NCBI RefSeq assembly: GCF_034347425.1
Contig: NZ_CP133779.1
Span: forward strand, 3,348,001-3,412,000
Length of the DNA stretch: 64,000 nucleotides
Direction: 5' to 3'
Origin: Undibacterium sp. CCC3.4
GTDB taxonomy: Bacteria > Pseudomonadota > Gammaproteobacteria > Burkholderiales > Burkholderiaceae_D
Of this stretch, positions 8,006 to 41,472 are shown one piece after another; the stretch's first letter is position 1; each line of letters opens with the position of its first letter. The notes under the pieces were generated by a model that ran no database searches, was not told where the DNA came from, and saw only the letters and a program-made list of their open reading frames with translations. Made by a program: the position numbers and the translations under genes.

Positions 8006-8043
8006 CGTAAGGGAGGGGCGCAATCGATCGGTCTGCTGAGCGA

Positions 8044-10383
8044 TCAGTTGCGCTCTCTGAGTACGCGAACCACGCCGCTCAAGTGCTTGATATTGCGCAT
8101 GATGCGCGCCAAGTGCGTGCGGTCTTCGACTTGTATCGTGAAGTGGATGTGCGTCATGTCGTTGGCGTCGCCATCTTCCATATTGACATGGCTGATATTG
8201 GCTTCTGATTCACCGATTTCAGCGGCAACTCGTGCCAGCGCGCCGCGCTCATTGCTGGCGGTGACTTCAATACGGGTATCAAAACTGCGATTGACTTCAT
8301 CGCCCCAATTGACATCGATCCAGCGGTCCGGTTCTTTGCTGCGTAAACGTTTGGCGTGCTCGCAGTCGTCGGTGTGCACGATCAAGCCTTGGTCGCGTTT
8401 CAGTTGACCGACGATGACATCGCCCGGAATTGGCAGGCAACATGGTGCCAATTGTACTGACACGCCTTCGCTGCCATAGATAATCACCGGTTCGTGCTTG
8501 TACTCAGGACGGTCGCCCAACTGTTGAAACGGTATCGAGGAGGAGTCATCTTCGACCAAGTCGAGCAAATGGCGTGCCACCAATGCTGCCATGCGCTTAC
8601 CGATGCCGATGTCGGCATACAGTTCATCGATGGATTTAGCGCTCGATTCGTTGAGTAACTTATCGATCAGCGCATCGGGCAGTTCCGGATTGAGATTCAC
8701 CGCCACCAAGGCTTGTGCCAGCAATTGCTTGCCCAGTTCGGTTGATTCGCTCAGATTGATGGTGCGTAAATAATGACGGATCGCCGAGCGCGCCTTGCCA
8801 GTTCTGACATAGGTCAGCCAATTCGGGGTAGGGCGCGAATTCGGTGAAGTGATGATTTCGACGATATCGCCGTTCTTGAGTTCTGAACGCAGTGGCACCG
8901 GCTCGTGATTAATCCGGGTGGCAATCGCTTGATCGCCGATATCGGTATGGATATTGTAAGCAAAATCGAGTGCCGTGGCACCGCGCGGCAGGGCGATGAT
9001 TTTGGATTTCGGGGTGAACACATAGACTGAGTCGGGGAACAGATCAATTTTGACATGTTCGAGGAATTCAGCCGAATCACCGGTTTGTTTTTGTATATCT
9101 AACAGCGACTGCAACCAGGCGTGGGTACGCTGCTGCAGATCGGTCAAGCTGCCTTCGTCGTTTTTATACAGCCAGTGTGCTGCCACGCCTGATTCGGCGA
9201 CACGATGCATTTCTTGCGTACGGATTTGAAATTCCACCGGCGTGCCGTATGGGCCGATCAAGGTGGTATGCAGCGATTGGTAGCCATTCGTCTTGGGAAT
9301 GGCGATGTAATCTTTGAACTTGCCCGGCATAGGCTTATAGAGTGCGTGCAGCGAGCCGAGGGCGTAATAACTTTCGCGGAAATTTTCTACCACCACGCGA
9401 AAACCGTAGACATCCAGCACTTGTGAAAAGCTCAGGTGCTTGTCTTGCATTTTGCGGTAAATACCATACAAAGTTTTTTCGCGCCCATAGACTTCTGCGG
9501 TCAGTCCGGCTTCTTTGAGTGTGCTTTTTACCGCTTCGAGAATTTTGCTGACGACTTCGCGGCGGTTGCCGCGTGCCGCTTTGACCGCTTTCGACAGCGT
9601 GCGATAGCGCATCGGGTACAAATGAGAAAATGCCAGATCTTGTAATTCGCGGTAAATATTATTGAGTCCGAGACGGTGCGCAATCGGCACATACACGTCC
9701 ATGGTCTCGCGCGAGATGCGGCGTTTTTTTTCTGATGACATGACGCCGAGCGTGCGCATATTGTGCAAACGATCGGCCAACTTGACTAAAATGACGCGGA
9801 CATCGCGCGCCATGGCCAGCAGCATCTTGCGGAAATTTTCCGCCTGTGCCTCGATCTGGCTTTGAAATTCGATTTTTTCCAACTTTGACAAGCCGTCGAC
9901 CAAGGCCGCTACCGGCGCGCCGAAACGCTCGATCAATTCATCTTTTTTGACATCCTGATCTTCCATCACATCATGCAGCAGCGCTGCCATGATGGCCTGT
10001 ACATCAAGCTTCCAGTCGGCGCAGATCTCGGCCACGGCAATCGGGTGGGAAATATATGGTTCGCCCGACTTTCTGACCTGACCTAAGTGCATTTCATCAG
10101 AAAAACGGTAGGCTTCCTTGACCAATTTCAGATCGGCCGGCGACATGTACTCGGCCAGACGTTGACTTAATGCGGTGGTGGAGGCGACGCCGATGTGCGT
10201 AACGACAGGGGGTGCGGCAGGACTGCGAGGGGAGGACGGCATGGTACTCGATTTGCTGCTGGTGGGGCTGCTGGTGGGGCTGTTGTTGGGACCGCCGTTA
10301 GGGCTATTGCCGCGGGCCGACGCAACAGCCGCCGATCCGGCCGGAGAGTGGTGTAACGAGGAATTGCAAAGCGCGGTATTCAT
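8044..10383 (-). CDS. spoT: Bifunctional (p)ppGpp synthetase/hydrolase SpoT/RelA
   Basis: Makes and degrades the alarmone (p)ppGpp. Domains in order: HD hydrolase (HDVMEDQ, with an intact His-Asp pair), RelA/SpoT synthetase (YGREKTLYGIYRKMQDK and IAIPKTNGYQSLHT), TGS (IDLFPDSVYVFTPKS) and a C-terminal ACT domain (TRIEVTASNERGALARVA). An intact HD motif argues for SpoT rather than RelA. The first ~60 residues are Ser/Pro/Asn-rich low complexity; the start may be further downstream, near VASTTALSQRLAEYM. It lies downstream of gmk and rpoZ in the same direction, the order seen in enterobacteria. Confidence 0.92.
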   Translation of the reverse strand: MNTALCNSSLHHSPAGSAAVASARGNSPNGGPNNSPTSSPTSSKSSTMPSSPRSPAAPPVVTHIGVASTTALSQRLAEYMSPADLKLVKEAYRFSDEMHLGQVRKSGEPYISHPIAVAEICADWKLDVQAIMAALLHDVMEDQDVKKDELIERFGAPVAALVDGLSKLEKIEFQSQIEAQAENFRKMLLAMARDVRVILVKLADRLHNMRTLGVMSSEKKRRISRETMDVYVPIAHRLGLNNIYRELQDLAFSHLYPMRYRTLSKAVKAARGNRREVVSKILEAVKSTLKEAGLTAEVYGREKTLYGIYRKMQDKHLSFSQVLDVYGFRVVVENFRESYYALGSLHALYKPMPGKFKDYIAIPKTNGYQSLHTTLIGPYGTPVEFQIRTQEMHRVAESGVAAHWLYKNDEGSLTDLQQRTHAWLQSLLDIQKQTGDSAEFLEHVKIDLFPDSVYVFTPKSKIIALPRGATALDFAYNIHTDIGDQAIATRINHEPVPLRSELKNGDIVEIITSPNSRPTPNWLTYVRTGKARSAIRHYLRTINLSESTELGKQLLAQALVAVNLNPELPDALIDKLLNESSAKSIDELYADIGIGKRMAALVARHLLDLVEDDSSSIPFQQLGDRPEYKHEPVIIYGSEGVSVQLAPCCLPIPGDVIVGQLKRDQGLIVHTDDCEHAKRLRSKEPDRWIDVNWGDEVNRSFDTRIEVTASNERGALARVAAEIGESEANISHVNMEDGDANDMTHIHFTIQVEDRTHLARIMRNIKHLSGVVRVLRERN

Positions 10384-20588: not shown

Positions 20589-20678
20589 GGAAGGTTGGCA
20601 GAGCGGTTGAATGCACCAGTCTTGAAAACTGGCGAGGTGTTATAGCCTTCGTGAGTTCGAATCTCACACCTTCCGCCA
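20589..20678 (+). tRNA. tRNA-Ser (anticodon TGA)
   Basis: 90-nt class II tRNA: acceptor stem GGAAGGT/ACCTTCC, anticodon stem CCAGT/ACTGG around loop CTTGAAA (anticodon TGA), a long variable arm typical of Ser, T-loop TTCGAAT, discriminator G and encoded CCA. Accessory, lower-GC DNA begins just downstream, making this tRNA the likely left border of an island. Confidence 0.97.
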
Positions 20679-20725: not shown

Positions 20726-21361
20726 GCCTACCCAGTATGCCATTCGGTATGCCATCTTATTTGGGTTGGCGTTGGATGTTATTGGATTCCTTTGGAGTAT
20801 CTGTTTATTATTGTTGTAAATTTTAAACGTGCCGAGCTGTCAATTAGATGCATAAATTTTCTCAATTTAATTAACGATACTATTTAGGGCCTGTTGTTAT
20901 GTGGGTTGCTAGCAACGGTTATCGGTATGAATGTACCTAGATATTGTAATTTTACCCTGTGTTCTATCAGACTATTTTTGTATGTTAATACACGCCAAGC
21001 TCCCGGCGATTCTCCCGTTGACCTAAGGAGGAAATTATGGTCCGAATGACATAATTCTACGTAGCAATATTAAATGAAATTAAATATCTCGAACAAGTTT
21101 GTGGCCCAGCCTGTTTCGGCACAACATCAACAATGCAAAAGAGATGTTTTAAAGCAGTCGATTGTAAAACCTCCTACATCGAAAATAGTCTCCGAACCGT
21201 AGAAATCTGCGCGCAATAATCATTCGAATCAACTTAACTCCAATAACATCGCTTATTGGAAGTCACGCGGGCTTGTTCCGAACCAAAAACCTTAGCAATT
21301 AATATTTGCTTACCCTGATGCGCCAGCCTCTAGGTGGGTTTCCTTTATTTGAGAAAAAAAT
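20726..21361 (+). other. AT-rich gap between tRNA-Ser and the cassette, with two candidate small ORFs
   Basis: No conventional gene is visible. A strong ribosome-binding sequence TAAGGAGG at 21,024-21,031 precedes ATG 21,037, but that frame stops after five codons and then stays open to 21,219, with Cys-rich content (VCGPACF, RCFKAVDCK). In another frame ATG 21,074 opens a 42-codon ORF ending at 21,202, which encodes a short basic peptide and lacks a good ribosome-binding site. The rest is non-coding leader for the epimerase gene. No integrase remnant could be identified. Confidence 0.5.
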
Positions 21362-22285
21362 ATGCAACGAATATTGATAACTGGATCAGAAGGTCTAGTG
21401 GGTAAGGCTGTGCGAATCGAACTGGAAAAGCAAGACATGATTGTTCAAGGTCTAGATTTGCTGGGGAAGGGAAGGGAATGGGGGAACGTATTAGACACGA
21501 ATGCGGTTCATTTAGGGCTAGAAGGTTGTGACGGTGTTATTCATCTTGCAGCAGTTTCTCGCGTCGTTTGGGGGGAGCGCGACCCTGACGCATGCTGGAG
21601 AACCAATGTGGAAGGATTGGGCAATGTATTGACTGAGGTTTCCAATCAAGTAACTCCACCGTGGGTAATTTTTGCCAGTAGTCGTGAAGTGTACGGGCAA
21701 CCTGAGCATTTGCCGGCCAACGAAGAGACGCCGCAGTGTCCTGTAAATATCTATGGTCGATCCAAACTGGCAGGGGAGGAACTGATTCAGCAAGCTCGCT
21801 TAAAAGGCATGAGAGCGGCAACGATACGTCTTTCAAATGTATATGGTCGGACTTGTGATCATCATGATCGGGTAATTCCTGCATTTGCAAGAGCTGCAGT
21901 AAATGGTCATCAACTGCGTGTTGATGGTTCTGGACATACTTTTGACTTTACACATATTGACGATACCGTTGGCGGTATCGTCGCGCTTGTGCATTATTTA
22001 CAGCAAGGAAATGATGCGCCTCTTCCAATTCACTTCTTAACTGGCCAAGCAACCACGCTGCAACAACTAGCGGAGATTTCGATAGAAATTGCTGGAACTT
22101 CAGCCTCTGTAGTGCAGGCGAGTCCGCGTTCATACGATGTTTCTCAGTTCTATGGGTGTAATCAGCGTGCTTTTGATGTACTAGGGTGGAAACCCAAAGT
22201 ATCTTTGCGTGAGGGCGTGACAAGATTAATCTCCGATTATAAATCCGATCAATCGATCAACACATTCAATGAGTCCTTATCATGA
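21362..22285 (+). CDS. NAD-dependent epimerase/dehydratase (extended SDR)
   Basis: 307 aa. Rossmann motif ITGSEGLVGKAV (GxxGxxG), GVIHLAAVSR, and the catalytic pair Tyr131/Lys135 in YGRSK after FASSREVYG. RLSNVYGR and the C-terminal GWKPKVSLREGVTRLI fit the UDP-glucose 4-epimerase-like group, which epimerises or dehydrates nucleotide sugars. Its stop overlaps the start of the glycosyltransferase gene (ATGA), so it opens a coupled four-gene cassette. Base composition is lower in GC than in the core genes to the left. Confidence 0.88.
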   Translation: MQRILITGSEGLVGKAVRIELEKQDMIVQGLDLLGKGREWGNVLDTNAVHLGLEGCDGVIHLAAVSRVVWGERDPDACWRTNVEGLGNVLTEVSNQVTPPWVIFASSREVYGQPEHLPANEETPQCPVNIYGRSKLAGEELIQQARLKGMRAATIRLSNVYGRTCDHHDRVIPAFARAAVNGHQLRVDGSGHTFDFTHIDDTVGGIVALVHYLQQGNDAPLPIHFLTGQATTLQQLAEISIEIAGTSASVVQASPRSYDVSQFYGCNQRAFDVLGWKPKVSLREGVTRLISDYKSDQSINTFNESLS

Positions 22286-24018
22286 AAATATTGCAAGTTA
22301 TTCATGGGTACCCGATGCGCTACAACGCGGGCTCAGAAGTCTATACACAAACTTTATGTCACGGGTTAGCAGAGCGCCATGAGGTTCACGTGTTTACCCG
22401 TGAAGAGGATCCTTTTGCACCTGATTTTGGAATGCGTATAGAAACAGACATTGACGAACCAAGAATTACAGTTCACTTGGTCAATAATGCTCGGAATCGG
22501 GACCGCTATAGTGAGATTGGAATTGATCAGCGATTTGCAGAGTTGCTTAATCGATTAACTCCTGACATTGTTCATGTCGGACATTTAAATCACTTGTCTA
22601 CTTCGATGTTGCAAGAGGCCGCTAATCGGGATATTCCAATTGTCTACACTTTGCATGACTATTGGGTGATGTGTCCGCGCGGGCAATTTATGCAAATGCA
22701 ACCCAAAGACGCAAATACGCTATGGGCAGCCTGTGATGGGCAAGAGGATAGAAAATGTGCCGAAAATTGTTATTCTCGATATTTTAGTGGGGACCCAGCC
22801 GAATATGAGTCGGACACTATCTATTGGACGGATTGGGTTTCGCGAAGAATGAAACATTTGCGAGCGATGACCGATCTTGTCGACGTCTTTGTCGCCCCCG
22901 CTAAGTATCTGTATCAACGATATCGTGATGATTTTGGATTGTCTGAGTCAAAATTAAAATACCTTGATTATGGATTTGATCTTAATCGACTTGAGGGGCG
23001 ACTACGTGAGTTTGGCGAACCCTTTACATTTGGCTATATCGGGACACACATTCCTGCGAAAGGAATTCATCAGTTAATCGAAGCATTTGGAATGATTAAG
23101 GGCAGTGCCAAGTTGCGAATATGGGGGCGACCAAGGGGGCAAGAAACGCAAGCGCTAAAGGCACTTGCGCTTGCCTTGCCAAAGGAAATTTCAGAGCGGA
23201 TTGAGTGGATGCAGGAATATCGAAATCAAGAAATCGTTCACGACGTTTTCAACCATGTTGACGCGATTGTTGTTCCTTCAGTGTGGGTAGAAAATTCACC
23301 CTTGGTAATTCATGAGGCACAACAGGCCCGCGTGCCAGTTATTACCGCAGACGCGGGTGGTATGGGGGAGTATGTACGTCATGAAGTCAATGGTCTAGTG
23401 TATGAGCATCGCTCAGTAGCAGCACTCGCATTGCAGATGCAGTGTATGGTTGACGACCCAGTCCGAGCGCGTGAGCTTGGCGAGCGAGGCTATCTATATA
23501 GTGATGATGGTCAAATTCCTTCGATTATTGACCATGTAATTGAGATCGAGAACTTATATAGGGATGTTCTTAGTCGACGAAATAGTGCTCGCGTTAGCTC
23601 AAGTGATGGACCTTGGCGTATCACTTTTGACACCAACCCAGACTCCTGCAACTTGCGTTGCATTATGTGTGAAGAGCACTCCCCACATAGTGCACTTCAG
23701 AGCATACGGATCGCCGAGGACCGCCCTCGTCGTGTCATGCCTTTTGAACTGATTCGTAAGACAGTGGCGGAAGCCGCAGCGCATGGTTTGAGAGAAATCA
23801 TTCCTTCTACCATGGGGGAGCCATTGTTATATAGTAATTTTGAGGATGTTTTGGCACTTTGTGTTGAATATAAGGTGCAACTTAACTTAACTACCAATGG
23901 TACTTTTCCGCGGTTAGGGGTCGAGGCATGGGCGAGGCGACTCGTTCCTGTGACCGGAGTTTTTCAAGCTAGTTGTCGCCTAAAAGTAAATTTTTATGCC
24001 GCCAGTTTCAGTTCTTGA
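22282..24018 (+). CDS. Glycosyltransferase GT4 fused to radical SAM domain, interrupted by IS-A (5' part)
   Basis: Native sequence runs to 23,954; the last ~21 codons come from the inserted IS. Residues 1-430 form a GT4 glycosyltransferase (N-terminal NAGSEVYTQTLCHGL; GYIGTHIPAKGIHQLIEAF; the E-x7-E region ENSPLVIHEAQ). From ~445 a radical SAM domain begins, with cluster ligands Cys456, Cys460 and Cys463 in CNLRCIMC, then STMGEPLLY and LTTNGTFPRLG. Joining 23,954 to 25,824 (one copy of the TGAC duplication removed) gives a continuous 783-aa protein ending in a SPASM domain. The shortened product may still have GT activity but not radical SAM activity. Confidence 0.85.
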   Translation: MKILQVIHGYPMRYNAGSEVYTQTLCHGLAERHEVHVFTREEDPFAPDFGMRIETDIDEPRITVHLVNNARNRDRYSEIGIDQRFAELLNRLTPDIVHVGHLNHLSTSMLQEAANRDIPIVYTLHDYWVMCPRGQFMQMQPKDANTLWAACDGQEDRKCAENCYSRYFSGDPAEYESDTIYWTDWVSRRMKHLRAMTDLVDVFVAPAKYLYQRYRDDFGLSESKLKYLDYGFDLNRLEGRLREFGEPFTFGYIGTHIPAKGIHQLIEAFGMIKGSAKLRIWGRPRGQETQALKALALALPKEISERIEWMQEYRNQEIVHDVFNHVDAIVVPSVWVENSPLVIHEAQQARVPVITADAGGMGEYVRHEVNGLVYEHRSVAALALQMQCMVDDPVRARELGERGYLYSDDGQIPSIIDHVIEIENLYRDVLSRRNSARVSSSDGPWRITFDTNPDSCNLRCIMCEEHSPHSALQSIRIAEDRPRRVMPFELIRKTVAEAAAHGLREIIPSTMGEPLLYSNFEDVLALCVEYKVQLNLTTNGTFPRLGVEAWARRLVPVTGVFQASCRLKVNFYAASFSS

Positions 24019-25079
24019 TATACGTCCTCATGATTTAATGCTTCCTTGTTAGTTTTGTCTGGATTTAAGTCAACAACGTTGGCGCGGTCCCAGTTACGAG
24101 TAGCACCGCTCCAGCGATTCGAGTTCCTTGCTTTTGCCGCCGCATACAATTGCTCACGTCGAATCAATAATTCCACATCCAGACCGGCATGGCGTTCAGC
24201 TGGCGTTACAAACTGAATGGCACTGTGCCGGTGTTCTTCGTTATACCAATGCATGAATGTAGTAACCCAATTCCTGGCTGCCAGGAGATCCTTAAATGGG
24301 CGACGTGGATATACTGGGCAGTACTTCAATGTTTTAAAAAAGCTTTCGGCGAACGGGTTGTCATTACTCACGGCAGGACGACTGAATGACGGCATGACGC
24401 CCAGCACCTGCAGCATGGCCAGCATCGTGGAGCCCTTCATCGGACTGCCGTTATCCGAATGAAGAACGACCTGATTTTGTGCGATTTTTTCTCGCACACA
24501 AATGTCCTTCATCACCTCGCTGGCCAGCGCGCTGCTTTCGGTTTCAAATACCTGCCAGCCGACCACTTTGCGACTAAATACATCGATGAACATATAGAGA
24601 TAAAAATAGATGCCTCTGATCTCTGTCGGCAAATAGGTGATGTCCCAACAGTACAATTGGTTGGGCCCGGTTGCCTTTAAAGCACGTGGTTTGTTGCGGG
24701 GTTGCCTTGGCTTTTCTTCGCCACGGTGCACAAGCATATTTTTAGCCTTGAGTAAGCGATAGAACGTTGACTCCGATGCGACATAAATTCCATCATCAGC
24801 CAATCGCGGAACGATCTGGCTTGGCGGCAGATGGCCGTATTCCGGCGAGTTGGCAATGGCCAGAACCTGTTGTCGTTCCTCTGAACTAAGCTGATTCTGA
24901 GGTACCTGCACACGCCCTGTTCGCCGGTCTGCTTGCTCAGTCACCTGATCAATTTTCCAGCGCTGCAGCGTACGCTCGCTTAAATCAATTACGTCGCAGG
25001 CACGTTCCTGACGTGCGCCTGAAACCACCGCTTCAGCTACCAGTGTCAATACGTTATTGCGCTCCGGGATTGGGGTCAT
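23994..25079 (-). CDS. IS-A copy 1 transposase OrfB (IS3 family, DDE integrase core)
   Basis: Catalytic core with the DDE residues in YCWDITYLP, LHSDNGSPM and NDNPFAESFF; an N-terminal helix-turn-helix (ACDVIDLSERTLQRWK) and the typical C-terminus ending in EDVYQELKLAA. The start ATG 25,079 forms TAATG with the stop of the alternative OrfA frame, so translational coupling is likely. An open frame continues upstream to 25,193 but is probably not a separate start. All catalytic residues are intact. Confidence 0.9.
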   Translation of the reverse strand: MTPIPERNNVLTLVAEAVVSGARQERACDVIDLSERTLQRWKIDQVTEQADRRTGRVQVPQNQLSSEERQQVLAIANSPEYGHLPPSQIVPRLADDGIYVASESTFYRLLKAKNMLVHRGEEKPRQPRNKPRALKATGPNQLYCWDITYLPTEIRGIYFYLYMFIDVFSRKVVGWQVFETESSALASEVMKDICVREKIAQNQVVLHSDNGSPMKGSTMLAMLQVLGVMPSFSRPAVSNDNPFAESFFKTLKYCPVYPRRPFKDLLAARNWVTTFMHWYNEEHRHSAIQFVTPAERHAGLDVELLIRREQLYAAAKARNSNRWSGATRNWDRANVVDLNPDKTNKEALNHEDVYQELKLAA

Positions 25080-25560
25080 TACTCCTCGTCCTCCCAAAGC
25101 GCACGGAACTTTTTTGCAGAACCAGCAGTGCTGCCGCCTCCGCCAGAGCTTTGTCTTTCCGGGCCAGCTCACGCTTGAGTTTGACGTTTTCATCTTTCAG
25201 CGATTTAACTTCACCAGCTTTGGGTGCGGCCTCTTTACCGCTGGCGCAAAAAGCAGATTTCCAACTGGTTAAATTATGCGGGAATAAACCACGTTCACGG
25301 CACCATGCCTGAAGCTGCTCTCCCGCTAACGCATGGCTCTCATGCAGTGCCTGCAGTTGTTCTTCTACCGTCCAGTCGCTCGGTCGTTTTTCTTTTTCTG
25401 ACGCCGGACTGCCCGCCAGTGCTGACTTCTTTTTCATCCAATATCTCAACGTGTGGTGATTCAAATTTAAATCAGTGGCCACTGACATGATTGTTCGGTC
25501 GCCACGGGAATAGGCCTTCTGTAATGCCTGCTCAATAAATGCAGCGGAATAGGTTGCCAT
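25054..25560 (-). CDS. IS-A copy 1 OrfA (DNA-binding subunit)
   Basis: Helix-turn-helix protein (MATYSAAFIEQALQKAYSRG, MSVATDLNLNHHTLRYWM) with a C-terminal heptad region (DENVKLKRELARKDKALAEA). ATG 25,560 is chosen over an upstream TTG. The run of six A (on the coding strand) after ALLVLQ sits at a point where a -1 shift would give the conserved KKFRALWEDEE ending seen in the related IS-C; the unshifted frame ends in an unrelated tail. Confidence 0.85.
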   Translation of the reverse strand: MATYSAAFIEQALQKAYSRGDRTIMSVATDLNLNHHTLRYWMKKKSALAGSPASEKEKRPSDWTVEEQLQALHESHALAGEQLQAWCRERGLFPHNLTSWKSAFCASGKEAAPKAGEVKSLKDENVKLKRELARKDKALAEAAALLVLQKSSVRFGRTRSNDPNPGAQ

Positions 25561-25823
25561 TGTTGCCTCGCTCAATAAGTTAAAAAGAGAGGTAACAACC
25601 AGATTGAAGATCGCCGGTCATTTTAGCCGTATAACTTCAAAATCAAAAAGCAAACCTTAACGTCTTGAGGGAATGGGTTCCGCTGCGTTCCACCCATAAA
25701 ACCCCGACTGCCTACGCCGGAAAAAGCTGGATAGATAATGCGAAAAACACAAACAAACAGACTTCAATGAGATCGGTTCAATTTAAAAAGTTACACGACA
25801 AGTAGTCTGACAGATGGGGTGAC

Positions 25824-26502
25824 ATCCGATGTCAAAATTTCGTGGAACGGAGCGACAAAAGAAACTCACGAGAAGATTATGTTGGGATCTCGATGGGAGA
25901 AAGTTTTAAAAAATGTACAGACTTTTATTTCTATAAGGGATGAGCATGCGTGCTTAGGCGGGAATCGTTGCCGTGTCACTTTCCAAATGACTTTTTTGGA
26001 GTCGAACGTGAATGAATTGCCCGATATTGTTCGACTCGCGATTAGTTTAGGCGTTGATAGGCTTAAAGGGCATCATTTATGGGCGCATTTCGGAGAGATC
26101 AAAAACGAATCTATGCGCCGCGATGTTGGTGCGATTCGTAGATGGAATGCAGCGGTGTTGGTTGCTCGTCAAATTGTCAGCGAACAGCCGCTCAGTAATG
26201 GAAAGCTACTGCTACTTGAAAACATTTTTCTTCTTGATGAGGATGATAAGGAAAATTTGGCACCAGGCGGGCAGTGTCCATTTTTAGGTAGAGAGGCTTG
26301 GGTAAGTGCCGTTGGACGATTTGATCCATGCTGCGCGCCAGATGCTCAACGACGTAATTTGGGGGATTTTGGAAACTTAAACGACATTAGTGTGATCGAT
26401 ATTTGGAGTGGTGATAAATATCGTAACCTACGTACTACATATCGCAATCGTCCTTTGTGCATAGCGTGCAATATGAGAAGACCCGTTCAGGAGTCAATAT
26501 GA
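25824..26502 (+). pseudogene. Radical SAM/SPASM 3' part of the interrupted GT4-radical SAM gene
   Basis: Continues the radical SAM barrel (SDVKISWNGATKETHEKIMLG) and then a SPASM-type auxiliary cluster domain: GGQCPFLGREAWVSAVGRFDPCC, LGDFGNLND and PLCIACNMRRP supply at least five Cys. Without the upstream part there is no proper start codon or ribosome-binding site, so this fragment is probably silent. The stop overlaps the ATG of the WG-repeat gene (ATGA), preserving the original operon arrangement. Confidence 0.85.
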
Positions 26503-27140
26503 ATTGGCGAAATGTATTGATTTCAGAGGATGCAACCCATCATGTAATCAACGGAGTCCCTGCGTATGATTTACGGTTTGATGAAGTGCTGAAATTTCAT
26601 GAGCCTGGCTTGGCCCCGGTTCAGAACGCTCATTTAGCCTGGCATATTGATGCAAATGGAAGAGCTGCTTATCAACGGCATTTCCGTCGGACATTTGGAT
26701 TTTACGAGGGGTTCGCAGCAGTCATATCCGCAAATGGATGGCATCATATTCGTCCTGATGGAGTAGATTTAACGTCTACTCGATATGAGTGGTGTGGGAA
26801 CTTTCAGGAAGGACGATGTGCCGTTCGGCAGGTGGGCGGATCCTATCATCACATCCTATCAAACGGATTACGGTTTTATGATCAATGTTGGCGATATACC
26901 GGAGATTTTAAAGATGGTATTGCAGTCGTTCAGAGCAATGATGGACAATCGACGCATATTGATCGAGCTGGGAATCTCATTCATGAGAATTGGTTTCTTG
27001 ATCTTGACGTATTTCATAAGGGCTATGCGCGCGCCAAATTTGCTTCTGGATGGGCGCATATTGATCGATTAGGGCGCGCAATTTATCTGCGCCGATTTCC
27101 CCATCTGTCAGACTACTTGTCGTGTAACTTTTTAAATTGA
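26499..27140 (+). CDS. WG-repeat protein, N-terminal part of an interrupted WG-repeat/O-methyltransferase gene
   Basis: Native sequence to 27,098, then ~14 codons from IS-A copy 2. ATG 26,499 overlaps the upstream stop. The sequence holds about four WG-like repeats with the pattern F-x-G-x-A-x-V ... W/S-x-HI-x-x-x-G (GFAAVISANGWHHIRPDG, GRCAVRQVGGSYHHILSNG, GIAVVQSNDGQSTHIDRAG, GYARAKFASGWAHIDRLG). WG repeats form beta structures often used for binding. Joining 27,098 to 28,967 restores a 556-aa protein with a C-terminal methyltransferase. Confidence 0.8.
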   Translation: MNWRNVLISEDATHHVINGVPAYDLRFDEVLKFHEPGLAPVQNAHLAWHIDANGRAAYQRHFRRTFGFYEGFAAVISANGWHHIRPDGVDLTSTRYEWCGNFQEGRCAVRQVGGSYHHILSNGLRFYDQCWRYTGDFKDGIAVVQSNDGQSTHIDRAGNLIHENWFLDLDVFHKGYARAKFASGWAHIDRLGRAIYLRRFPHLSDYLSCNFLN

Positions 27141-27356
27141 ACCGATCTCATTGAAGTCTGTTTGTTTGTGTTTTTCGCATTATCTATCCAGCTTTTTCCG
27201 GCGTAGGCAGTCGGGTTTTATGGGTGGAGCGCAGCGGAACCCATTCCCTCAAGACGTTAAGGTTTGCTTTTTGATTTTGAAGTTATACGGCTAAAATGAC
27301 CGGCGATCTTCAATCTGGTTGTTACCTCTCTTTTTAACTTATTGAGCGAGGCAACA

Positions 27357-27863
27357 ATGGCAACCTATTCCGCTGCATTTATTGAGCAGGCATTACAGAA
27401 GGCCTATTCCCGTGGCGACCGAACAATCATGTCAGTGGCCACTGATTTAAATTTGAATCACCACACGTTGAGATATTGGATGAAAAAGAAGTCAGCACTG
27501 GCGGGCAGTCCGGCGTCAGAAAAAGAAAAACGACCGAGCGACTGGACGGTAGAAGAACAACTGCAGGCACTGCATGAGAGCCATGCGTTAGCGGGAGAGC
27601 AGCTTCAGGCATGGTGCCGTGAACGTGGTTTATTCCCGCATAATTTAACCAGTTGGAAATCTGCTTTTTGCGCCAGCGGTAAAGAGGCCGCACCCAAAGC
27701 TGGTGAAGTTAAATCGCTGAAAGATGAAAACGTCAAACTCAAGCGTGAGCTGGCCCGGAAAGACAAAGCTCTGGCGGAGGCGGCAGCACTGCTGGTTCTG
27801 CAAAAAAGTTCCGTGCGCTTTGGGAGGACGAGGAGTAATGACCCCAATCCCGGAGCGCAATAA
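27357..27863 (+). CDS. IS-A copy 2 OrfA
   Basis: Identical in protein sequence to OrfA of IS-A copy 1: HTH region followed by a Lys/Glu-rich heptad segment. The run of six A before G at 27,802-27,808 marks the point where a -1 slip would switch to the ending KKFRALWEDEE and the TAATG junction with orfB. ATG 27,357 follows a GAGG at good spacing. Confidence 0.85.
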   Translation: MATYSAAFIEQALQKAYSRGDRTIMSVATDLNLNHHTLRYWMKKKSALAGSPASEKEKRPSDWTVEEQLQALHESHALAGEQLQAWCRERGLFPHNLTSWKSAFCASGKEAAPKAGEVKSLKDENVKLKRELARKDKALAEAAALLVLQKSSVRFGRTRSNDPNPGAQ

Positions 27864-28923
27864 CGTATTGACACTGGTAGCTGAAGCGGTGGTTTCAGGC
27901 GCACGTCAGGAACGTGCCTGCGACGTAATTGATTTAAGCGAGCGTACGCTGCAGCGCTGGAAAATTGATCAGGTGACTGAGCAAGCAGACCGGCGAACAG
28001 GGCGTGTGCAGGTACCTCAGAATCAGCTTAGTTCAGAGGAACGACAACAGGTTCTGGCCATTGCCAACTCGCCGGAATACGGCCATCTGCCGCCAAGCCA
28101 GATCGTTCCGCGATTGGCTGATGATGGAATTTATGTCGCATCGGAGTCAACGTTCTATCGCTTACTCAAGGCTAAAAATATGCTTGTGCACCGTGGCGAA
28201 GAAAAGCCAAGGCAACCCCGCAACAAACCACGTGCTTTAAAGGCAACCGGGCCCAACCAATTGTACTGTTGGGACATCACCTATTTGCCGACAGAGATCA
28301 GAGGCATCTATTTTTATCTCTATATGTTCATCGATGTATTTAGTCGCAAAGTGGTCGGCTGGCAGGTATTTGAAACCGAAAGCAGCGCGCTGGCCAGCGA
28401 GGTGATGAAGGACATTTGTGTGCGAGAAAAAATCGCACAAAATCAGGTCGTTCTTCATTCGGATAACGGCAGTCCGATGAAGGGCTCCACGATGCTGGCC
28501 ATGCTGCAGGTGCTGGGCGTCATGCCGTCATTCAGTCGTCCTGCCGTGAGTAATGACAACCCGTTCGCCGAAAGCTTTTTTAAAACATTGAAGTACTGCC
28601 CAGTATATCCACGTCGCCCATTTAAGGATCTCCTGGCAGCCAGGAATTGGGTTACTACATTCATGCATTGGTATAACGAAGAACACCGGCACAGTGCCAT
28701 TCAGTTTGTAACGCCAGCTGAACGCCATGCCGGTCTGGATGTGGAATTATTGATTCGACGTGAGCAATTGTATGCGGCGGCAAAAGCAAGGAACTCGAAT
28801 CGCTGGAGCGGTGCTACTCGTAACTGGGACCGCGCCAACGTTGTTGACTTAAATCCAGACAAAACTAACAAGGAAGCATTAAATCATGAGGACGTATATC
28901 AAGAACTGAAACTGGCGGCATAA
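27838..28923 (+). CDS. IS-A copy 2 transposase OrfB (DDE)
   Basis: Same protein as in copy 1, with WDITYLP, SDNGSPM and NPFAESFF catalytic blocks intact. Start ATG 27,838 lies in a TAATG junction. Because both copies are intact and nearly identical, recent transposition is likely. Confidence 0.9.
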   Translation: MTPIPERNNVLTLVAEAVVSGARQERACDVIDLSERTLQRWKIDQVTEQADRRTGRVQVPQNQLSSEERQQVLAIANSPEYGHLPPSQIVPRLADDGIYVASESTFYRLLKAKNMLVHRGEEKPRQPRNKPRALKATGPNQLYCWDITYLPTEIRGIYFYLYMFIDVFSRKVVGWQVFETESSALASEVMKDICVREKIAQNQVVLHSDNGSPMKGSTMLAMLQVLGVMPSFSRPAVSNDNPFAESFFKTLKYCPVYPRRPFKDLLAARNWVTTFMHWYNEEHRHSAIQFVTPAERHAGLDVELLIRREQLYAAAKARNSNRWSGATRNWDRANVVDLNPDKTNKEALNHEDVYQELKLAA

Positions 28924-28962
28924 AAATTTACTTTTAGGCGACAACTAGCTTGAAAAACTCCG

Positions 28963-30037
28963 ATTTGCAGCAATTGAGCCTTTTTATAACAGCCAGGCAC
29001 GCGTTGAGAGATTTGACGGTGGATTGGAAGTTATTAATGAGGAGGGCGTTTGTGTAGTTGAACTCCGATCTGCGATTCAAACTGAATTTTCCAGACTGTC
29101 TACAGACCTGGTCGGTTTTTGGAAAACTAAAACGATTTCTTCCGCTGTTGAGTTGAAAATATTTGAATCTCTTCCGGCAGCGGTTGAAAAAATAGCGCTT
29201 AATTGTGGATTAAAACTTGATCTTACAAAACGCTTACTGCGAGCTCTCGGGGAGTTAAATCTTCTTGAATATTCACGTGGGGTTTGGAGTGTAACGGCTA
29301 AAGGAGCTTATTTACAGCAAGCGCATCCAATGACTTTGGCTGATGCAGCGATTGAGTATGAACAGTATCTTTCACCTATGTGGAATGGATTGTCGGATGC
29401 AATTCGTGGCAACGATAAATGGCATGCGCCAGATATATTTAATCAGGTAGCCCTTGATGGTGAACGTACATTGCCACACCATCGAATGCTGCAGAGTTAT
29501 GCTCTTCATGATTATGCACCTTTACCTGAAGTCTTGAATCTGGATTCCATTACACATTTGATTGATGCAGGTGGCGGAACCGGATCGCTGACCAAATATT
29601 TGGCCCAACGATACGAGTCCTTGAAAATATCTCTGTTTGATTTACCTGAAGTGATTGATCATGCTCGAAATTTGATTGGAATTCATGAGCAAATAGAGTT
29701 TCATGGCGGAGATTTATTTCAACCATGGGGGTTACATGCAGATGCTGTTTTATTGGCTCGAGTTTTACATGATTGGGATGATCAGGCTGCTTTGGCAATT
29801 CTTCAACGGGCGCGCTCAACTTTGCCAATAGGCGGGCGTATTTTTATTGTAGAGATGTTGTTGCTCGAAGACGAAATGTCGGGAGGGCTGTGTGATCTTC
29901 ATCTCTTGATGGCGACCGGTGGGCGAGAACGTACATTGAGTGGTTATAGACTTTTACTTGAGTCGGCAGGTTTTTATTTTCATGAGTCAGTAAAACTTAA
30001 CTCACTTCCAACAGTTCTTGTCGGAGTCGCAAAGTGA
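28963..30037 (+). pseudogene. O-methyltransferase 3' part of the interrupted WG-repeat/methyltransferase gene
   Basis: After the end of the WG region (EPFYNSQARVERFDGGLEV) this holds a complete class I O-methyltransferase of the COMT/acetylserotonin type. The helical dimerisation domain (ELKIFESLPAAVEKIAL, LTKRLLRALGELNLLEY) is followed by LIDAGGGTGSLTKYLA (SAM-binding loop), ISLFDLPEVIDHARN and RVLHDWDDQAALAIL, the usual catalytic His region. An in-frame TTG at 29,024 could allow some expression of the methyltransferase, but no good ribosome-binding site is seen. The stop overlaps the next gene's GTG start. Confidence 0.85.
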
Positions 30038-31356
30038 GTGAGGATATTCGATATCAGATTCCACATTCGACAATTCATTGGATCTCAGAAGCTCCGAAAA
30101 ACATTCCGATTGTCGTACTTCTTCGACATTCGGTGCGTGATGACTTGCCACCCAATGATGTGGGATATGGATTGCCGATTACCGCTAACGGCAAACAGCT
30201 TTCGCATGAGTTAGGCGCTATTTTTGGTAATCGACTACGATCACTTCATACTAGTCCACTTGTCCGCTGCATCCAGACTGCTGAGTCAATTCAGACTGGG
30301 GCTATCAGTACTTTACCGATTAATTCTGACCGGTTACTAGGTGATCCAGGTGTATTTGTTATTGACGGAAAATTGGCGTTTACGAATTGGAAAGAGCTTG
30401 GCCATGAGGGTGTCATGGATCACTTGGTAAAGCGGGACACATCTTTACCAGGAATAGCAAATGCTGATTCGGCAGCAAGATTTTTGGTTCAGCATATGCT
30501 TGCGTCGTCATTGAATCGCCCCGGGTTTCATGTTTTTGTTACGCATGATTCTCTTGTTACTGCGACTGCTGCAAGAATGCTTGGGGTGCCTTATGGAATT
30601 GAAGACTGGCCACTGTTCTTGGAAGCAGCTTTTTTTTGGCAAGAAGAAAACAGTGTTTTTTCAGCTTATAGGGACGTCTGCAGGTCACACCATACATTTC
30701 CGTTATGTCATTTTGATGATGTAGATGTCATTGAGTTTGCTCGTCGTGAAATTGCGCAGGCATTAGGGAGTGATTGCGCAGCGCGTTTTTTTCTTGCTGG
30801 GGGTGCTTTTAAATCTCTTCTAACGGGCATGCCTCCTCGAGATCTTGATGTATGGGCGGCTTCAAATCAGGATCGAGATATTTTACTAACCACTTTGGTT
30901 CAACGTGGTGCAATTCAACTCAGTAGTACTACTTTTTCTGAACGATTTCAAATCGGCAATCGAATATTGGAGATTCCATTTCATACTGAATCTAGAACCT
31001 TAAGTAGTCTTCTCGATGGTTTTGACATCGGGCTATCAGCAATCGGTGTTGAGTTCGAATTTGGGCGAGAGTATCGTGTGTTGATTCATCCAATGGCTAA
31101 GATATCGGTTTTACGGAAAGAAATATTATTAATAAAACCTTTGCCCAATTGGAAGTATGCGTTGACGACACTTGAACGCATGCATCGTTATCAAATGGAA
31201 CTGCGTTTCCGTATTCCTAATGAGGAAGTGGATGCTATTTGGAATGTATTTGATTCACAAGACTCCACGATGAAACAAGGTATGGTTGACCGCTATAAAC
31301 GTACAAGCGTCCTCGATTGTTGTCTGATTGAGGAGGTTGAGGCTCGACGTAGTTAA
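30034..31356 (+). CDS. Histidine phosphatase fused to a nucleotidyltransferase-like domain
   Basis: 440 aa from a GTG that overlaps the methyltransferase stop (GTGA). Residues ~20-210 form a histidine-phosphatase domain: LLRHSVRDDL with the phospho-accepting His32, TSPLVRCIQTAE, and the second His171 in FVTHDSL. Residues ~255-430 contain FLAGGAFKSLLTGMPPRDLDVW, a GG...DxD pattern (Asp270/Asp272) as in the polymerase-beta nucleotidyltransferase superfamily. This two-domain layout suggests hydrolysis and nucleotidyl transfer on the same metabolite (inference). The gene is intact, the last of the cassette, and low in GC. Confidence 0.75.
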   Translation: MSEDIRYQIPHSTIHWISEAPKNIPIVVLLRHSVRDDLPPNDVGYGLPITANGKQLSHELGAIFGNRLRSLHTSPLVRCIQTAESIQTGAISTLPINSDRLLGDPGVFVIDGKLAFTNWKELGHEGVMDHLVKRDTSLPGIANADSAARFLVQHMLASSLNRPGFHVFVTHDSLVTATAARMLGVPYGIEDWPLFLEAAFFWQEENSVFSAYRDVCRSHHTFPLCHFDDVDVIEFARREIAQALGSDCAARFFLAGGAFKSLLTGMPPRDLDVWAASNQDRDILLTTLVQRGAIQLSSTTFSERFQIGNRILEIPFHTESRTLSSLLDGFDIGLSAIGVEFEFGREYRVLIHPMAKISVLRKEILLIKPLPNWKYALTTLERMHRYQMELRFRIPNEEVDAIWNVFDSQDSTMKQGMVDRYKRTSVLDCCLIEEVEARRS

Positions 31357-37362: not shown

Positions 37363-37857
37363 TTGTTTTACAAAAGACATGTGACAGGTAGCCTAACACC
37401 GGGGGATACCGGCATGGCCTTAGAACGCCTGCTCAACGTGTTTAGCGCAGAATTTAACCATCAAAAGGAAGCCAAACTCTACATCTTTTTTGATGAAGTA
37501 CAGTACCTCAAAGAGTGGGAGATCCATTTAAAGTCCCTAGTCGACTCATATTCTGACTATAAATTTGTCGTTACAGGCTCAGCAGCAGCTGCCTTAAAAC
37601 TAAAGAGCAATGAGTCCGGTGCTGGCCGCTTCAGTAACTTTGTGTTGCCACCACTCACTTTTGCTGAATACCTGCGCTTTATACAAAGAGACACTGAGCT
37701 TATAAATACTGTCGTGCCACCTGGCGTAGGCTATACCGCTAATAATATTGATGCATTGAATGAGGAATTTTTAAATTACCTCAACTTTGGTGGCTACCCT
37801 GAAGCAGTTTTCAGCGATACGATCCGAGAAAATCCACAGCAATTTATTCGTGGTGAC
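37363..37857 (+). pseudogene. DUF4143-type ATPase, middle part (N-terminus lost, interrupted by IS-B)
   Basis: AAA-type ATPase fragment: LYIFFDEVQYLKEWEIHLKSL (Walker B region) and FVVTGSAAAALKLKSNES (sensor 1), then FVLPPLTFAEYLRF. The P-loop normally found ~60 residues earlier is missing because IS-D ends at about 37,405. True gene sequence probably starts at ~37,406. The ORF stops in IS-B copy 3. Joined to 39,235 it continues in frame (QFIRGD-IIDKVLLRDLP). Confidence 0.85.
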
Positions 37858-37950
37858 TAAAGTGGCCCCCTAAGTCCAGACAATTATTCAAAGAGTTTAA
37901 GATAGTGCCTGTTTCTGCCACAGCTGCGCGGCGCTGCCCCGTTATTCGCA

Positions 37951-38862
37951 CTACATCACTACCGTGCTTTTCTTTTCTAGCTTTTTTGAATCAGGCAGTT
38001 CAGTACCAAATTTGTTTACGATCTTGGCACCGCCGCCCACGCCTGAGCCATACACGGTTTCCGGCGTTTGATAACCCAATGATTGATGTTTACGCTCAGC
38101 GTTGTAGAACATAAAATAGTTCGCCAAGCCGATCACCAATTCCGGCATACTTTCATGCTTTTTCAAATACACTTCTTCATATTTCACACTGCGCCATAAG
38201 CGCTCAACAAAAATATTATCCAGCGCCCGACCGCGACCGTCCATACTGATTTTGATGCCGTTTCTAAGCAGCAGCCCAGTAAAGGCCTGGCTGGTAAACT
38301 GCGCACCCTGATCGGTATTAAAAATCTCCGGCGTTCCATACCATTTTATGGCTTCTTCCAAGCAGTCCACGCAAAACCCCGCATCCATCGTGTTCGACAA
38401 CCGCCAGGACAGCAGCTTCCGGCTGTACCAGTCAACGATCGCCACCAGATACACAAAACCCCGCGGCAGCCTGATGAATGTGATGTCTGTACTCCAGACC
38501 ATATTTGGTCGAGTGACGTCGATACCTCTCAGTAAGTACGGGTAAATCTTGTTCTGCGGATGCGCTTTACTGGTGTTGGGGCCTGGGGCCATACCTGCCA
38601 ATCCCAGTTGCTGCATCAGCCTCTGTACGCGCTTTCGGTTCACTGTATGGCCACAGTCTCGCAAGTAATGCGTCATGCGTCGCGTGCCGTAAAATGGATG
38701 TCTGGTGTATTCCTCGTCAAGCAATTGCAACAGCAAACTATCAAACGGATTGATCTCTTCCTGCAAGCGCTTTTTCTTGTCGTACACGACCGAGCGCGTG
38801 ACTGAAACGAGACGGCATTGTGTGGCGATTGAAAGGGCAGAGAGCGGCTCTACCCACTGCAA
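37951..38862 (-). CDS. IS-B copy 3 transposase OrfB (DDE)
   Basis: 303 aa, nearly identical to OrfB of copy 2 (a few substitutions such as VLSW/LLSW). DDE blocks STDITFI, NTDQGAQFT and FVERLWR are intact. It is in the -1 frame relative to orfA. Confidence 0.9.
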   Translation of the reverse strand: MQWVEPLSALSIATQCRLVSVTRSVVYDKKKRLQEEINPFDSLLLQLLDEEYTRHPFYGTRRMTHYLRDCGHTVNRKRVQRLMQQLGLAGMAPGPNTSKAHPQNKIYPYLLRGIDVTRPNMVWSTDITFIRLPRGFVYLVAIVDWYSRKLLSWRLSNTMDAGFCVDCLEEAIKWYGTPEIFNTDQGAQFTSQAFTGLLLRNGIKISMDGRGRALDNIFVERLWRSVKYEEVYLKKHESMPELVIGLANYFMFYNAERKHQSLGYQTPETVYGSGVGGGAKIVNKFGTELPDSKKLEKKSTVVM

Positions 38863-38870
38863 TCGTACCG

Positions 38871-39164
38871 TTACAGGCTGATCCCTGACTTTTTTTTAAG
38901 CCAATCGAGTTCCATATTCAGTTGCCCAATTTTGGCATAGAGACGGTCTGGGTCGTTCTGTGTGCTGGCCGGTTTCGGACCGCGTTTACCTTCAAACAGA
39001 CTGCCTGCATTTTCCAGTAATTCTTTCTTCCACTGGCTGACCTGCGTCGGATGCACCCCGAACTCTTGGGCGATCTGATTGATCGTCTTTTCGCCTTTGA
39101 TCGCCTCAACTGCCACCTTGGCTTTTTGTGCGCCGCTAAATATTTTTCTCTTATTTTCACTCAT
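38871..39164 (-). CDS. IS-B copy 3 OrfA
   Basis: Same 97-aa HTH protein as in copy 2, with the run of eight A (complement at 38,890-38,897) as frameshift site near its 3' end. Confidence 0.88.
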   Translation of the reverse strand: MSENKRKIFSGAQKAKVAVEAIKGEKTINQIAQEFGVHPTQVSQWKKELLENAGSLFEGKRGPKPASTQNDPDRLYAKIGQLNMELDWLKKKSGISL

Positions 39165-39234
39165 GGTCTGCCTCGTCTCTTTTCGACAGACACTAGTTTA
39201 AACTGTTGTCCGGATATGTGGATCCACTATAGAC

Positions 39235-39954
39235 ATCATCGACAAAGTACTATTGCGTGACCTGCCTAGCTTGTACGGCATCAGTGATATCCAGGAACTT
39301 AACCGCCTATTTACTACGCTGGCCTACAACACCGGCCGCGAGATTTCTTTAGATACTTTATCTAAGAATTCTAACGTCGCAAAAAATACAATAGGCCGCT
39401 ATCTGGAATATCTGGAAGCCGCATTTTTGATCAAAAGAATTGAACGCATCGATCAAAATGCCAAACGTTTTAAACGCGCCATGAGTTTTAAAGTCTACCT
39501 AACCAACCCCTCCATGCGCGCCGCTCTGTTTGGTCCTATCGATGCAGATAGTCCAGATATGGGGCCACTTGCAGAAACCGCCATCTTTAGCCAATGGCAA
39601 CATAGCGATAGAACTACTTTATATTATGCACAGTGGAAAAACGGCGAAGTCGACATCGTCTATTTAGATGAAACAACCCAATCGCCACGATGGGCGGTAG
39701 AAGTGAAATGGTCAGACCGCCCATATACCCACACAGATGAACTAGACAACTGCGTCGAGCTAGCTGAAAAAAATACGGCGCTTAAAGAAGGTTTCAGAGT
39801 TACATCGCACACCATTTCTGATTTCATAGAATATAAAAACATTAGGTTTGAATTTGTACCTTGCAGCTTATACACGTATACGTTGGGAAAAAATTTCCTG
39901 TTCTACCGAAATCTTCGGCATGTTTTTGGGAAACGATCGGCACGCACAGTTTAA
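39235..39954 (+). pseudogene. DUF4143-type ATPase, C-terminal part
   Basis: Continues the interrupted gene: LLRDLPSLYGISDIQELNRLF, a winged-helix-like segment (SLDTLSKNSNVAKNTIGRYL) and the DUF4143 domain with KVYLTNPSMRAALFG, ETAIFSQWQHS, and GEVDIVYLDE followed by WAVEVKWSD, which resembles an Asp...E-x-K nuclease-like core. Such ATPases are common orphan accessory genes. Both ends are damaged upstream, so the gene is dead. Confidence 0.85.
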
Positions 39955-40512: not shown

Positions 40513-40697
40513 TCATTTGCTCAAACAAATTTGAGTTACTTATTATGTAAATGAAAATTAAATACAAATAAAGGAAATTAATATGAAAAATTCCATATAC
40601 AAAAACAACTACTAATTTGAAAATTGAGATTAAAACTTATACATACCTATACATATTTGAAGCATCGGTGCTTTTAGCACCCCAAAAGGTGGAAATG

Positions 40698-41009
40698 ATG
40701 AACCCTACGGAAAACAGAGACCGGATTACAGCCCGTGTTTCTCAACCCATAGCAACACGATTACAAGTGGCAGCCGATTTGATGGGTGCAACTTTGAACC
40801 AATTCCTGGTTCAAGCTGCACTCGAAAAAGCTAATAGTGTTATTGAACATGAACAAACAATACGTTATTCGCTGGAAGACGTTGCCTTATTTTTAACCAT
40901 GCTGGACGCTCCTGGTGAACCAAATCCAACACTGGTCAAAGCGTTTGAGGGAAGAAACTCTAAGGTGAAAAATGCGAAGCGAACCAATACGCTTGAGCAC
41001 AGTTCATGA
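40698..41009 (+). CDS. DUF1778 (TacA/AtaR-like) antitoxin
   Basis: About 103 aa. NRDRITARVSQPIATRLQVAADLMGATLNQFLVQAALEKA is the ribbon-helix-helix DNA-binding part of DUF1778 antitoxins; the C-terminal half (YSLEDVALFLTMLDAPGEPNP) wraps the toxin in known systems. Start ATG 40,695/40,698 after AAAAGGTGG; the frame is open further upstream. It overlaps the toxin gene by 38 bp, the usual coupling, and should repress its own promoter. Confidence 0.9.
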   Translation: MNPTENRDRITARVSQPIATRLQVAADLMGATLNQFLVQAALEKANSVIEHEQTIRYSLEDVALFLTMLDAPGEPNPTLVKAFEGRNSKVKNAKRTNTLEHSS

Positions 41010-41472
41010 TCGTGAAACTTTTGACTGTGGAAATGAGGCGTTAAATAGTTTTTTTAAAAATGTCGCCGGACAACATGATAGTAAAAGTGTTTCCAAAACG
41101 TTTGTAATAGCTGACGATGAAGATCGAGCTAGAGTGGCAGGATTTTATACGCTTGCAATGCGTAAGCTGACACCAAAGGAACAATTGCCACCAGAGATAG
41201 CGAAGCGCCTTCCTGCAAGTTTGCCCGGAATTACGCTGGCTAGACTCGCTGTCGATAAAAATTATCAGAGGCGAGGTGTAGGTGAGGATCTTTTGCTGAG
41301 CGCCATGTCGCGGGCAAAAAAAGTGTCACACGAAATAGGTGGATTTGCACTATTCGTTGACGCTAAAGACGGTGTTGCCGAATTTTATAAAAATTACGGT
41401 TTTACTCCGTTACCTTCGAATCCACTGATACTTTTGATCCCATTCAAAAATATTCCCGATGATGCTGACTAG
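40972..41472 (+). CDS. GNAT-family toxin (TacT/AtaT-like)
   Basis: 166 aa. MRSEPIRLSTVHDRETFDCGNEALNSFF is the TacT-type N-terminus; LARLAVDKNYQRRGVGEDLL holds the acetyl-CoA loop (Q/R-x-x-G-x-G/A), and AEFYKNYGFTPLPSNP carries the conserved Tyr near the active site. Known relatives acetylate charged aminoacyl-tRNAs and stop translation. All recognisable motifs are intact, so the pair may be functional. Confidence 0.9.
   Translation: MRSEPIRLSTVHDRETFDCGNEALNSFFKNVAGQHDSKSVSKTFVIADDEDRARVAGFYTLAMRKLTPKEQLPPEIAKRLPASLPGITLARLAVDKNYQRRGVGEDLLLSAMSRAKKVSHEIGGFALFVDAKDGVAEFYKNYGFTPLPSNPLILLIPFKNIPDDAD

Follow-up and report, generated by a model that had tools for sequence, protein, structure and literature searches.

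The window analysed here is a stretch of 64,000 nucleotides from Undibacterium sp. CCC3.4 (contig NZ_CP133779.1, positions 3,348,001 to 3,412,000), and it carries a cassette of four overlapping genes for an NAD-dependent epimerase/dehydratase (EPI), a GT4 glycosyltransferase fused to a radical SAM/SPASM enzyme (GT4/rSAM), a WG-repeat domain fused to an O-methyltransferase (WG/OMT), and a histidine phosphatase fused to a CCA-type nucleotidyltransferase (HP/NT). The locus is a copy, broken by insertion sequences (IS), of a probable mobile biosynthetic module that is otherwise intact in distant bacteria. In its relatives, whose loci are numbered with an L below, conserved fusion enzymes, a peptide motif without a name and a previously undescribed structured RNA are found together across phyla. 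We propose, with a probability of roughly 40%, that the module encodes a new pathway similar to those for ribosomally synthesised and post-translationally modified peptides (RiPPs), in which glycosyl transfer, radical chemistry and methyl transfer would modify a peptide under the control of an RNA, and which would be kept in defence islands. Should the peptide prove to be the substrate, the pathway would define a new class of glycosylated RiPPs with an RNA switch, and the overlaps with genes of the cyclic-oligonucleotide-based antiphage signalling system (CBASS) and the bacteriophage exclusion system (BREX) make a chemical role in bacterial immunity testable.

Co-occurrence and conservation of the fused enzymes

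When genome contigs were scanned with an alignment of HP/NT, 52 loci were retrieved. GT4/rSAM is encoded in 34 of these HP-seeded loci and has WG alongside it in every one; 21 of the 34 also have EPI, and 29 have OMT. The denominators include L011, even though it begins at a contig edge and its upstream parts cannot be scored; L046, which has only the radical SAM end at a contig edge, was excluded and would have been the 35th. The cassette varies most in its fourth gene, which is HP/NT in 19 of the 34 loci and encodes only HP in 11 and only NT in four; in other loci it is absent or replaced. The module is conserved, with GT4/rSAM and WG as its core and EPI, OMT and HP/NT as frequent partners, and its bearers belong to the beta-, gamma-, alpha- and deltaproteobacteria, the Myxococcota and the Nitrospinae. 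Most of the HP-seeded loci bear the peptide gene or the RNA leader described below. L017, from Ectothiorhodospira shaposhnikovii DSM 243, is an unbroken example in which the RNA and the peptide accompany all four genes. Beyond the cassette genes, no family of called genes (60 amino acids or more) is common to more than three of the 52 loci. In the stretches examined, HP stands without the other cassette genes in L026, L027, L031, L032, L040, L041, L043 and L048.

The preliminary description of this DNA, made from the letters alone, had joined the four genes by ATGA, ATGA and GTGA overlaps, which the window sequence confirms, and had interpreted three of them as two-domain fusions in a tightly coupled and acquired cassette. 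The fusions are real: GT4/rSAM, WG/OMT and HP/NT are uninterrupted in the relatives, which include proteins of 783, 556 and about 440 amino acids, as predicted for the reconstructed genes (783, 556 and 440 amino acids). The tight coupling was borne out, and the acquisition by the window genome is counted as supported. Homologs sought in other genomes do co-occur: of the 52 HP-seeded loci, 34 combine GT4/rSAM with WG, and the epimerase is present in 21 of these 34. This rules out both a chance association and the notion that these genes are never found together elsewhere. The same description knew of no system with this gene set, and none turned up in the results of a literature search. Its reading holds in part: the fusions, the coupling, the acquisition and a link to a peptide stood, and the RNA, the defence contexts, the variable fourth gene and the probably dead state of the copy had been overlooked.

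The mean column identity is 80% across 16 GT4/rSAM proteins and 68% across 14 WG/OMT proteins. The CxxxCxxC motif of the radical SAM domain and the SPASM cysteines are invariant in the 16 relatives, as are the DxGGGxG motif and a histidine of OMT in the 14 WG/OMT proteins, and the histidine and arginine of HP and the DxD motif of NT are conserved. For the radical SAM part, at least 2076 of 7994 scored candidates qualify as relatives at E≤0.001. A fold comparison assigns NT to the tRNA-nucleotidyltransferase fold, which is a statement about fold and does not imply function; the HP/NT matches in this comparison (VIA-align) mostly cover residues 15-214, and those to nucleotidyltransferases are fewer. 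The fold matches of the whole WG/OMT protein are filled by methyltransferases, the WG domain being covered only within the whole protein. A phage- or plasmid-borne HP/NT fusion is not supported, as the phosphatase part alone matched, at 27% identity, in two phage and three plasmid-collection records. In L007, a gene for a PhyH dioxygenase (7322-8347) is placed between GT4/rSAM and WG/OMT.

The peptide gene and its RNA leader

Directly upstream of the cassette there is a short frame with one or two copies of the motif DN[RH]ANQLNPxxxAYxxSRG. A hidden Markov model (HMM) of the motif identifies it upstream and on the same strand as the cassette in 19 of the 34 HP-seeded loci (E≤0.01), and no further match at this threshold was obtained within those loci; the peptides of L012 and L033 score weakly. 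The peptide gene adjoins the modifying enzymes in these 19 loci and in one of seven Myxococcota loci found through GT4/rSAM, and it may encode the precursor. The preliminary description had suggested that neighbours be compared for a conserved small precursor gene and had guessed at a peptide; the guess is supported because such a gene is found upstream in many loci. Whole-genome searches for the peptide and the RNA covered 32 of the 33 bearer genomes, leaving out that of L037, and returned exactly one motif match in 17 genomes and none in 15 (E≤1e-5).

Over 19 core codons in 21 loci, the differences at the first, second and third codon positions are 0.31, 0.28 and 0.61. Changes at third positions are thus about twice as frequent as at either of the other two, and the peptide is under purifying selection. 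It is also co-inherited with the enzymes, as its distances correlate with those of GT4/rSAM (Mantel r 0.52, n=20, 0 of 2000 permutations). None of the Pfam or NCBIfam models fits the motif peptides that were scanned, which gave only matches below the cut-off. The wider motif family, DNxANQxNPNNDAYWxSRG, is large and often has two copies; its members come from bacteria, a single viral contig and a few sequences with a eukaryotic label, and no Pfam or NCBIfam model was found for it in the scans made. A second conserved peptide in the loci that lack the motif is not supported, as a comparison of small open reading frames (ORFs) gave mostly low-complexity noise among the matches listed.

A conserved RNA element of about 140-175 nucleotides is located upstream of the peptide gene and ends just before its start codon. 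In a MAFFT alignment of 21 sequences, the window included, 29 of 39 pairs have changes on both sides. The two-sided cells number 107, compared with a mean of 33.8 after shuffling, and the score is 0.388, compared with 0.175 for shuffled and at most 0.115 for slid alignments. A structure supported by covariation is therefore present upstream of the genes. Two partners are available to its 5' GGGTC, a nearby GACCC and a GACCC in a hairpin loop, and the two competing helices are kept alike, in 92.4% and 92.7% of the cells, suggesting that the RNA is a switch or a pseudoknot. In the window, the element is found at 20895-21052 on the plus strand (80 bits, E 2e-15 with the covariance model R1, the seed of which contains the window row).

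At E<0.01, the R1 model finds the RNA in 24 of 56 sources, counting the window, and always at the start of the cassette or a short way ahead of it; the matches in L020, L035 and L042 lay outside the seed. The RNA is present in 22 of the 32 bearer genomes and is single in all but one of them. In that genome, which is the genome of L050, a second copy (L074, 1-2991) heads a decayed and frameshifted set with EPI and GT4 pieces identified by BLAST and a radical SAM piece seen by eye; the sister RNA of this genome is in the seed, so the second match is not fully independent. Among 369 genomes of the class, only the source genome contains the RNA. Its distances also follow those of GT4/rSAM (Mantel r 0.83, n=17, 0 of 2000 permutations). 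Searches against Rfam 15 gave no family at the gathering threshold in six loci other than tRNA, and only chance-level matches for the RNA of L021 and the window.

The proposed pathway and its rivals

The proposed module is ordered as RNA leader, motif peptide, EPI, GT4/rSAM-SPASM, WG/OMT, and HP with or without the CCA-type NT. The RNA would control expression, perhaps by switching its GGGTC between the two competing GACCC partners. The WG domain may hold the peptide, the radical SAM/SPASM half would alter one of its residues, and the GT4 half would add a sugar from a nucleotide sugar shaped by EPI, the fusion of these two halves allowing both steps to act on one bound substrate. The OMT half would then methylate the peptide, and HP, NT or both could trim or cap a phosphate or nucleotide group. 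The predicted product is a new kind of RiPP-derived, glycosylated and O-methylated metabolite, the genes for which the bearers would often keep in defence islands. The parts with their joint occurrence and inheritance, the conservation of active-site residues, the structure of the RNA and the selection acting on the peptide are established, and the peptide as substrate, the sequence of steps, the part played by the RNA and the purpose of the product are inferred.

Several observations weigh against this proposal. The 52 loci were themselves selected through HP/NT, and the motif HMM was built from proteins retrieved with the loci's own peptides. No gene for a protease, an exporter or a recognition protein was seen among those that the loci share, and a Pfam scan of the window pieces revealed no recognition element or protease, though distant ones could escape it. 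The RNA is found without a clear motif in L013, L035, L042 and L050, and the motif without the RNA in L047 and L049. The motif is also not private to the cassette, an idea that is refuted by three loci (L060-L062) and by the protein profile search, which gave 4615 clusters at E≤10; the best 120 of these include a few labelled as eukaryotic. It occurs on one viral contig and in four of 398 genomes of the phylum, the source genome included; the other three have no cassette gene within 12-19.5 kb around the motif, which in two of them is the N-terminus of a larger protein. The occurrence of the motif away from the cassette weakens the view that it marks a dedicated precursor.

The core can also stand without the peptide and the RNA. 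A search seeded with GT4/rSAM was positive in 11 of 195 Myxococcota genomes, four of them already known. The seven new loci contain WG in six cases, OMT in three, HP in one (26% identity) and the motif in one, with neither NT nor the RNA in any; no EPI match at or above 38% identity was found in them, EPI and GT4 matches below this value having been discarded. In the Desulfobacterota, two of 237 genomes were positive for GT4/rSAM, one of which was already known, and the new locus (L102) has EPI, GT4/rSAM, WG, OMT and HP and lacks the motif; the RNA was not sought there. Three plasmids of 20-21 kb from Arsenophonus of louse flies (L076-L078: CP132904, CP132902 and CP132908) keep EPI, GT4, rSAM and WG/OMT, GT4 and rSAM being encoded there in two frames that overlap, and neither the motif nor the RNA was found on them. 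The core likewise lacks both in the two Myxococcota loci with a CBASS-type gene pair and in the locus inside a BREX operon that are described next.

In the main rival explanation, the cassette serves anti-phage defence, either as a module in its own right or as an accessory to other defence systems, and its modified product takes part in an immune response, adjusts it or protects it. We regard this as possible, if on the unlikely side. In L022, the cassette is located inside a BREX operon, between BrxH (1642 bits) and PglZ (1100 bits), which is followed by BrxA, ZacA and ZacB, and there are start/stop overlaps at both cassette edges. Farther upstream in L022, genes that by eye look like BrxC, PglX and Tn7-type genes were seen. 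In L095 and L096, both from Myxococcota, the run of GT4/rSAM and WG/OMT continues into genes for a cGAS/DncV-like nucleotidyltransferase (CD-NTase) and a CBASS-type patatin phospholipase. In comparisons with the PDB, the L095 CD-NTase matches a cGAS/DncV-like enzyme (E 2e-10) and, more weakly, CdnE, and the L095 patatin matches a CBASS cGAMP-activated phospholipase (E 6e-36). According to the ORF coordinates, WG/OMT and the CD-NTase share an ATGA overlap in L095, and the CD-NTase and patatin genes overlap by 11 nucleotides in both loci. Operon coupling to a named defence system is nevertheless confined to three of 42 chromosomal loci, some of which were read gene by gene.

The surroundings of the cassette likewise contain defence genes. 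In PADLOC, 96 flanking genes, which are those of 117 chosen flanking proteins that the alignment took, matched 152 families, led by AbiEii and WYL (three each) and GajB-type helicases (two). The comparison set, 89 genes from the surroundings of loci with only HP or only NT, matched 43 families, including MADS, a type II methylase and PD-T4-6; this is a rough control, as it is unmatched for genome and distance and the counts are inflated by redundant models. For this reason, defence is held as the main rival or as a setting of the module and not as an established function. Of the cassette proteins themselves, GT4/rSAM and WG/OMT of L009 gave only weak viperin-type and mad2 matches in PADLOC, and the window HP/NT gave no match. 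Neither a CD-NTase nor PglZ, BrxA or BrxH was noticed among the window ORFs, of which only HP/NT was scanned with PADLOC. Bacteriocin genes likewise co-localise with defence genes, according to excerpts of PMC12715929, and the plasmids of the obligate symbionts keep the core beside vitamin genes. It is rather unlikely, in our judgement, that GT4/rSAM and WG form an immune chemistry module making a glycosylated and methylated compound that plugs into different defence systems; such a compound would derive from the RNA-controlled peptide in many bacteria, and in the CBASS-coupled form it may modify the signal or shield it from phage sponges and nucleases.

Another explanation, which we consider unlikely, is that the pathway yields a small molecule (a cofactor or a natural product) that does not derive from the peptide, and that the peptide serves as carrier, regulator or protector. 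On the Arsenophonus plasmids, the core without motif or RNA adjoins panB, panC and panE and is accompanied by genes for PhyH, which follows WG/OMT, and for a protein resembling serine hydroxymethyltransferase (Pfam on one plasmid); PhyH is found in L007 too. OMT is closest to natural-product O-methyltransferases, and MmcR, DnrK and HIOMT, its nearest matches, act on small molecules. Six of the seven GT4/rSAM-seeded Myxococcota loci also lack the motif. The excerpts of a paper on these Arsenophonus symbionts treat only the pantothenate genes (PMC10654098). Against this explanation, the peptide, where present, is single in the genome, beside the cassette, co-inherited and under selection.

A surface-glycan cassette is very improbable: it would account for the epimerase and GT4 domains, and for the GT4 half NCBIfam gives weak matches, below the cut-off, to enzymes of exopolysaccharides and the cell wall, but no glycan polymerase or flippase is among the top 25 Pfam families of the 96 flanking genes, and no gene outside the cassette recurs in more than three of the 52 loci. 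We give still less credence to the structured RNA, rather than the peptide, as the substrate of NT and the other enzymes, as might be read from the fold of NT and from an RNA that tracks the cassette, given that NT was not found in 11 of the 34 loci, several of them with the RNA, and that the RNA stops just before the peptide start codon in the manner of a leader.

The broken copy in the window and comparison with known systems

In the window, the parts of the cassette all lie on the plus strand. A tRNA-Ser (TGA) gene identified by ARAGORN (20589-20678) is located 5' of the cassette, and a duplication of the tRNA end as an att site was sought in the window and not found. The peptide frame begins with an ATG at 21073, about 20 nucleotides behind the RNA, a spacing as in the relatives. 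Its part ahead of the motif is longer than in the relatives and contains an in-frame TAG (21200-21202), such that the first part covers 21073-21202; the rest (21203-21295) bears the NNHSNQLNSNNIAYWKSRG motif (E 3.6e-11) and ends in a TAG stop codon. This motif, with one TAG inside its frame, is the sole match in the whole source genome. EPI (21362-22285) and HP/NT (30034-31356) have intact frames, and the second and third genes are interrupted by two near-identical, inverted IS copies. Copy 1 (23955-25819, minus strand), which has two transposase frames and is IS3-like by eye, separates GT4 and the first part of the radical SAM domain (22282-23954) from the remaining radical SAM and SPASM domain (25820-26502, with a SPASM Pfam match). 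Copy 2 (27099-28962, plus strand), inverted relative to copy 1, cuts the WG-repeat domain (26499-27098) off from the O-methyltransferase half with its Dimerisation and Methyltransf_2 domains (28963-30037). The in-frame stop in the peptide frame and the splitting of both fusions suggest that the window copy is probably dead. Elsewhere in the window, AAA_14 and DUF4143 parts of what seems to be one ATPase gene flank another insertion sequence (37363-39954), and a small gene overlaps a GNAT acetyltransferase gene (40617-41472), a pair that is toxin-antitoxin-like by eye.

Parts of the module resemble four kinds of known systems. CBASS and BREX operons with extra genes are similar in that two loci run into CD-NTase and patatin genes and one is inside a BREX operon; these are, however, three of the 42 chromosomal loci, and the cassette genes match no CBASS or BREX model strongly in a scan of GT4/rSAM, WG/OMT and HP/NT. 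Riboswitch-like leaders are similar in having a conserved, covarying structure near the start codon with two competing pairings, whereas the RNA of the six loci searched belongs to no Rfam 15 family at the gathering threshold. With the clusters for pyrroloquinoline quinone (PQQ) and other SPASM-RiPPs, the cassette shares the pairing of a peptide gene with a SPASM radical SAM enzyme; it differs by its glycosyl- and methyltransferase fusions, and no recognition domain or protease was seen in it.

The mycofactocin pathway also has a SPASM radical SAM enzyme and methylation, and it resembles the cassette in combining these with a small peptide gene and glycosylation. The glycosylation of mycofactocin is carried out by MftF (excerpts of PMC7491314). 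No counterpart of any other mft gene was noticed in the cassette, in which no search directed at mycofactocin was made, and no mycofactocin model is among the NCBIfam matches listed for six window pieces or five motif peptides, again without a dedicated search. The cassette is distinguished from mycofactocin by the fusion of GT4 to the radical SAM enzyme, by its WG and HP/NT parts, by an unrelated peptide motif and by the RNA leader.

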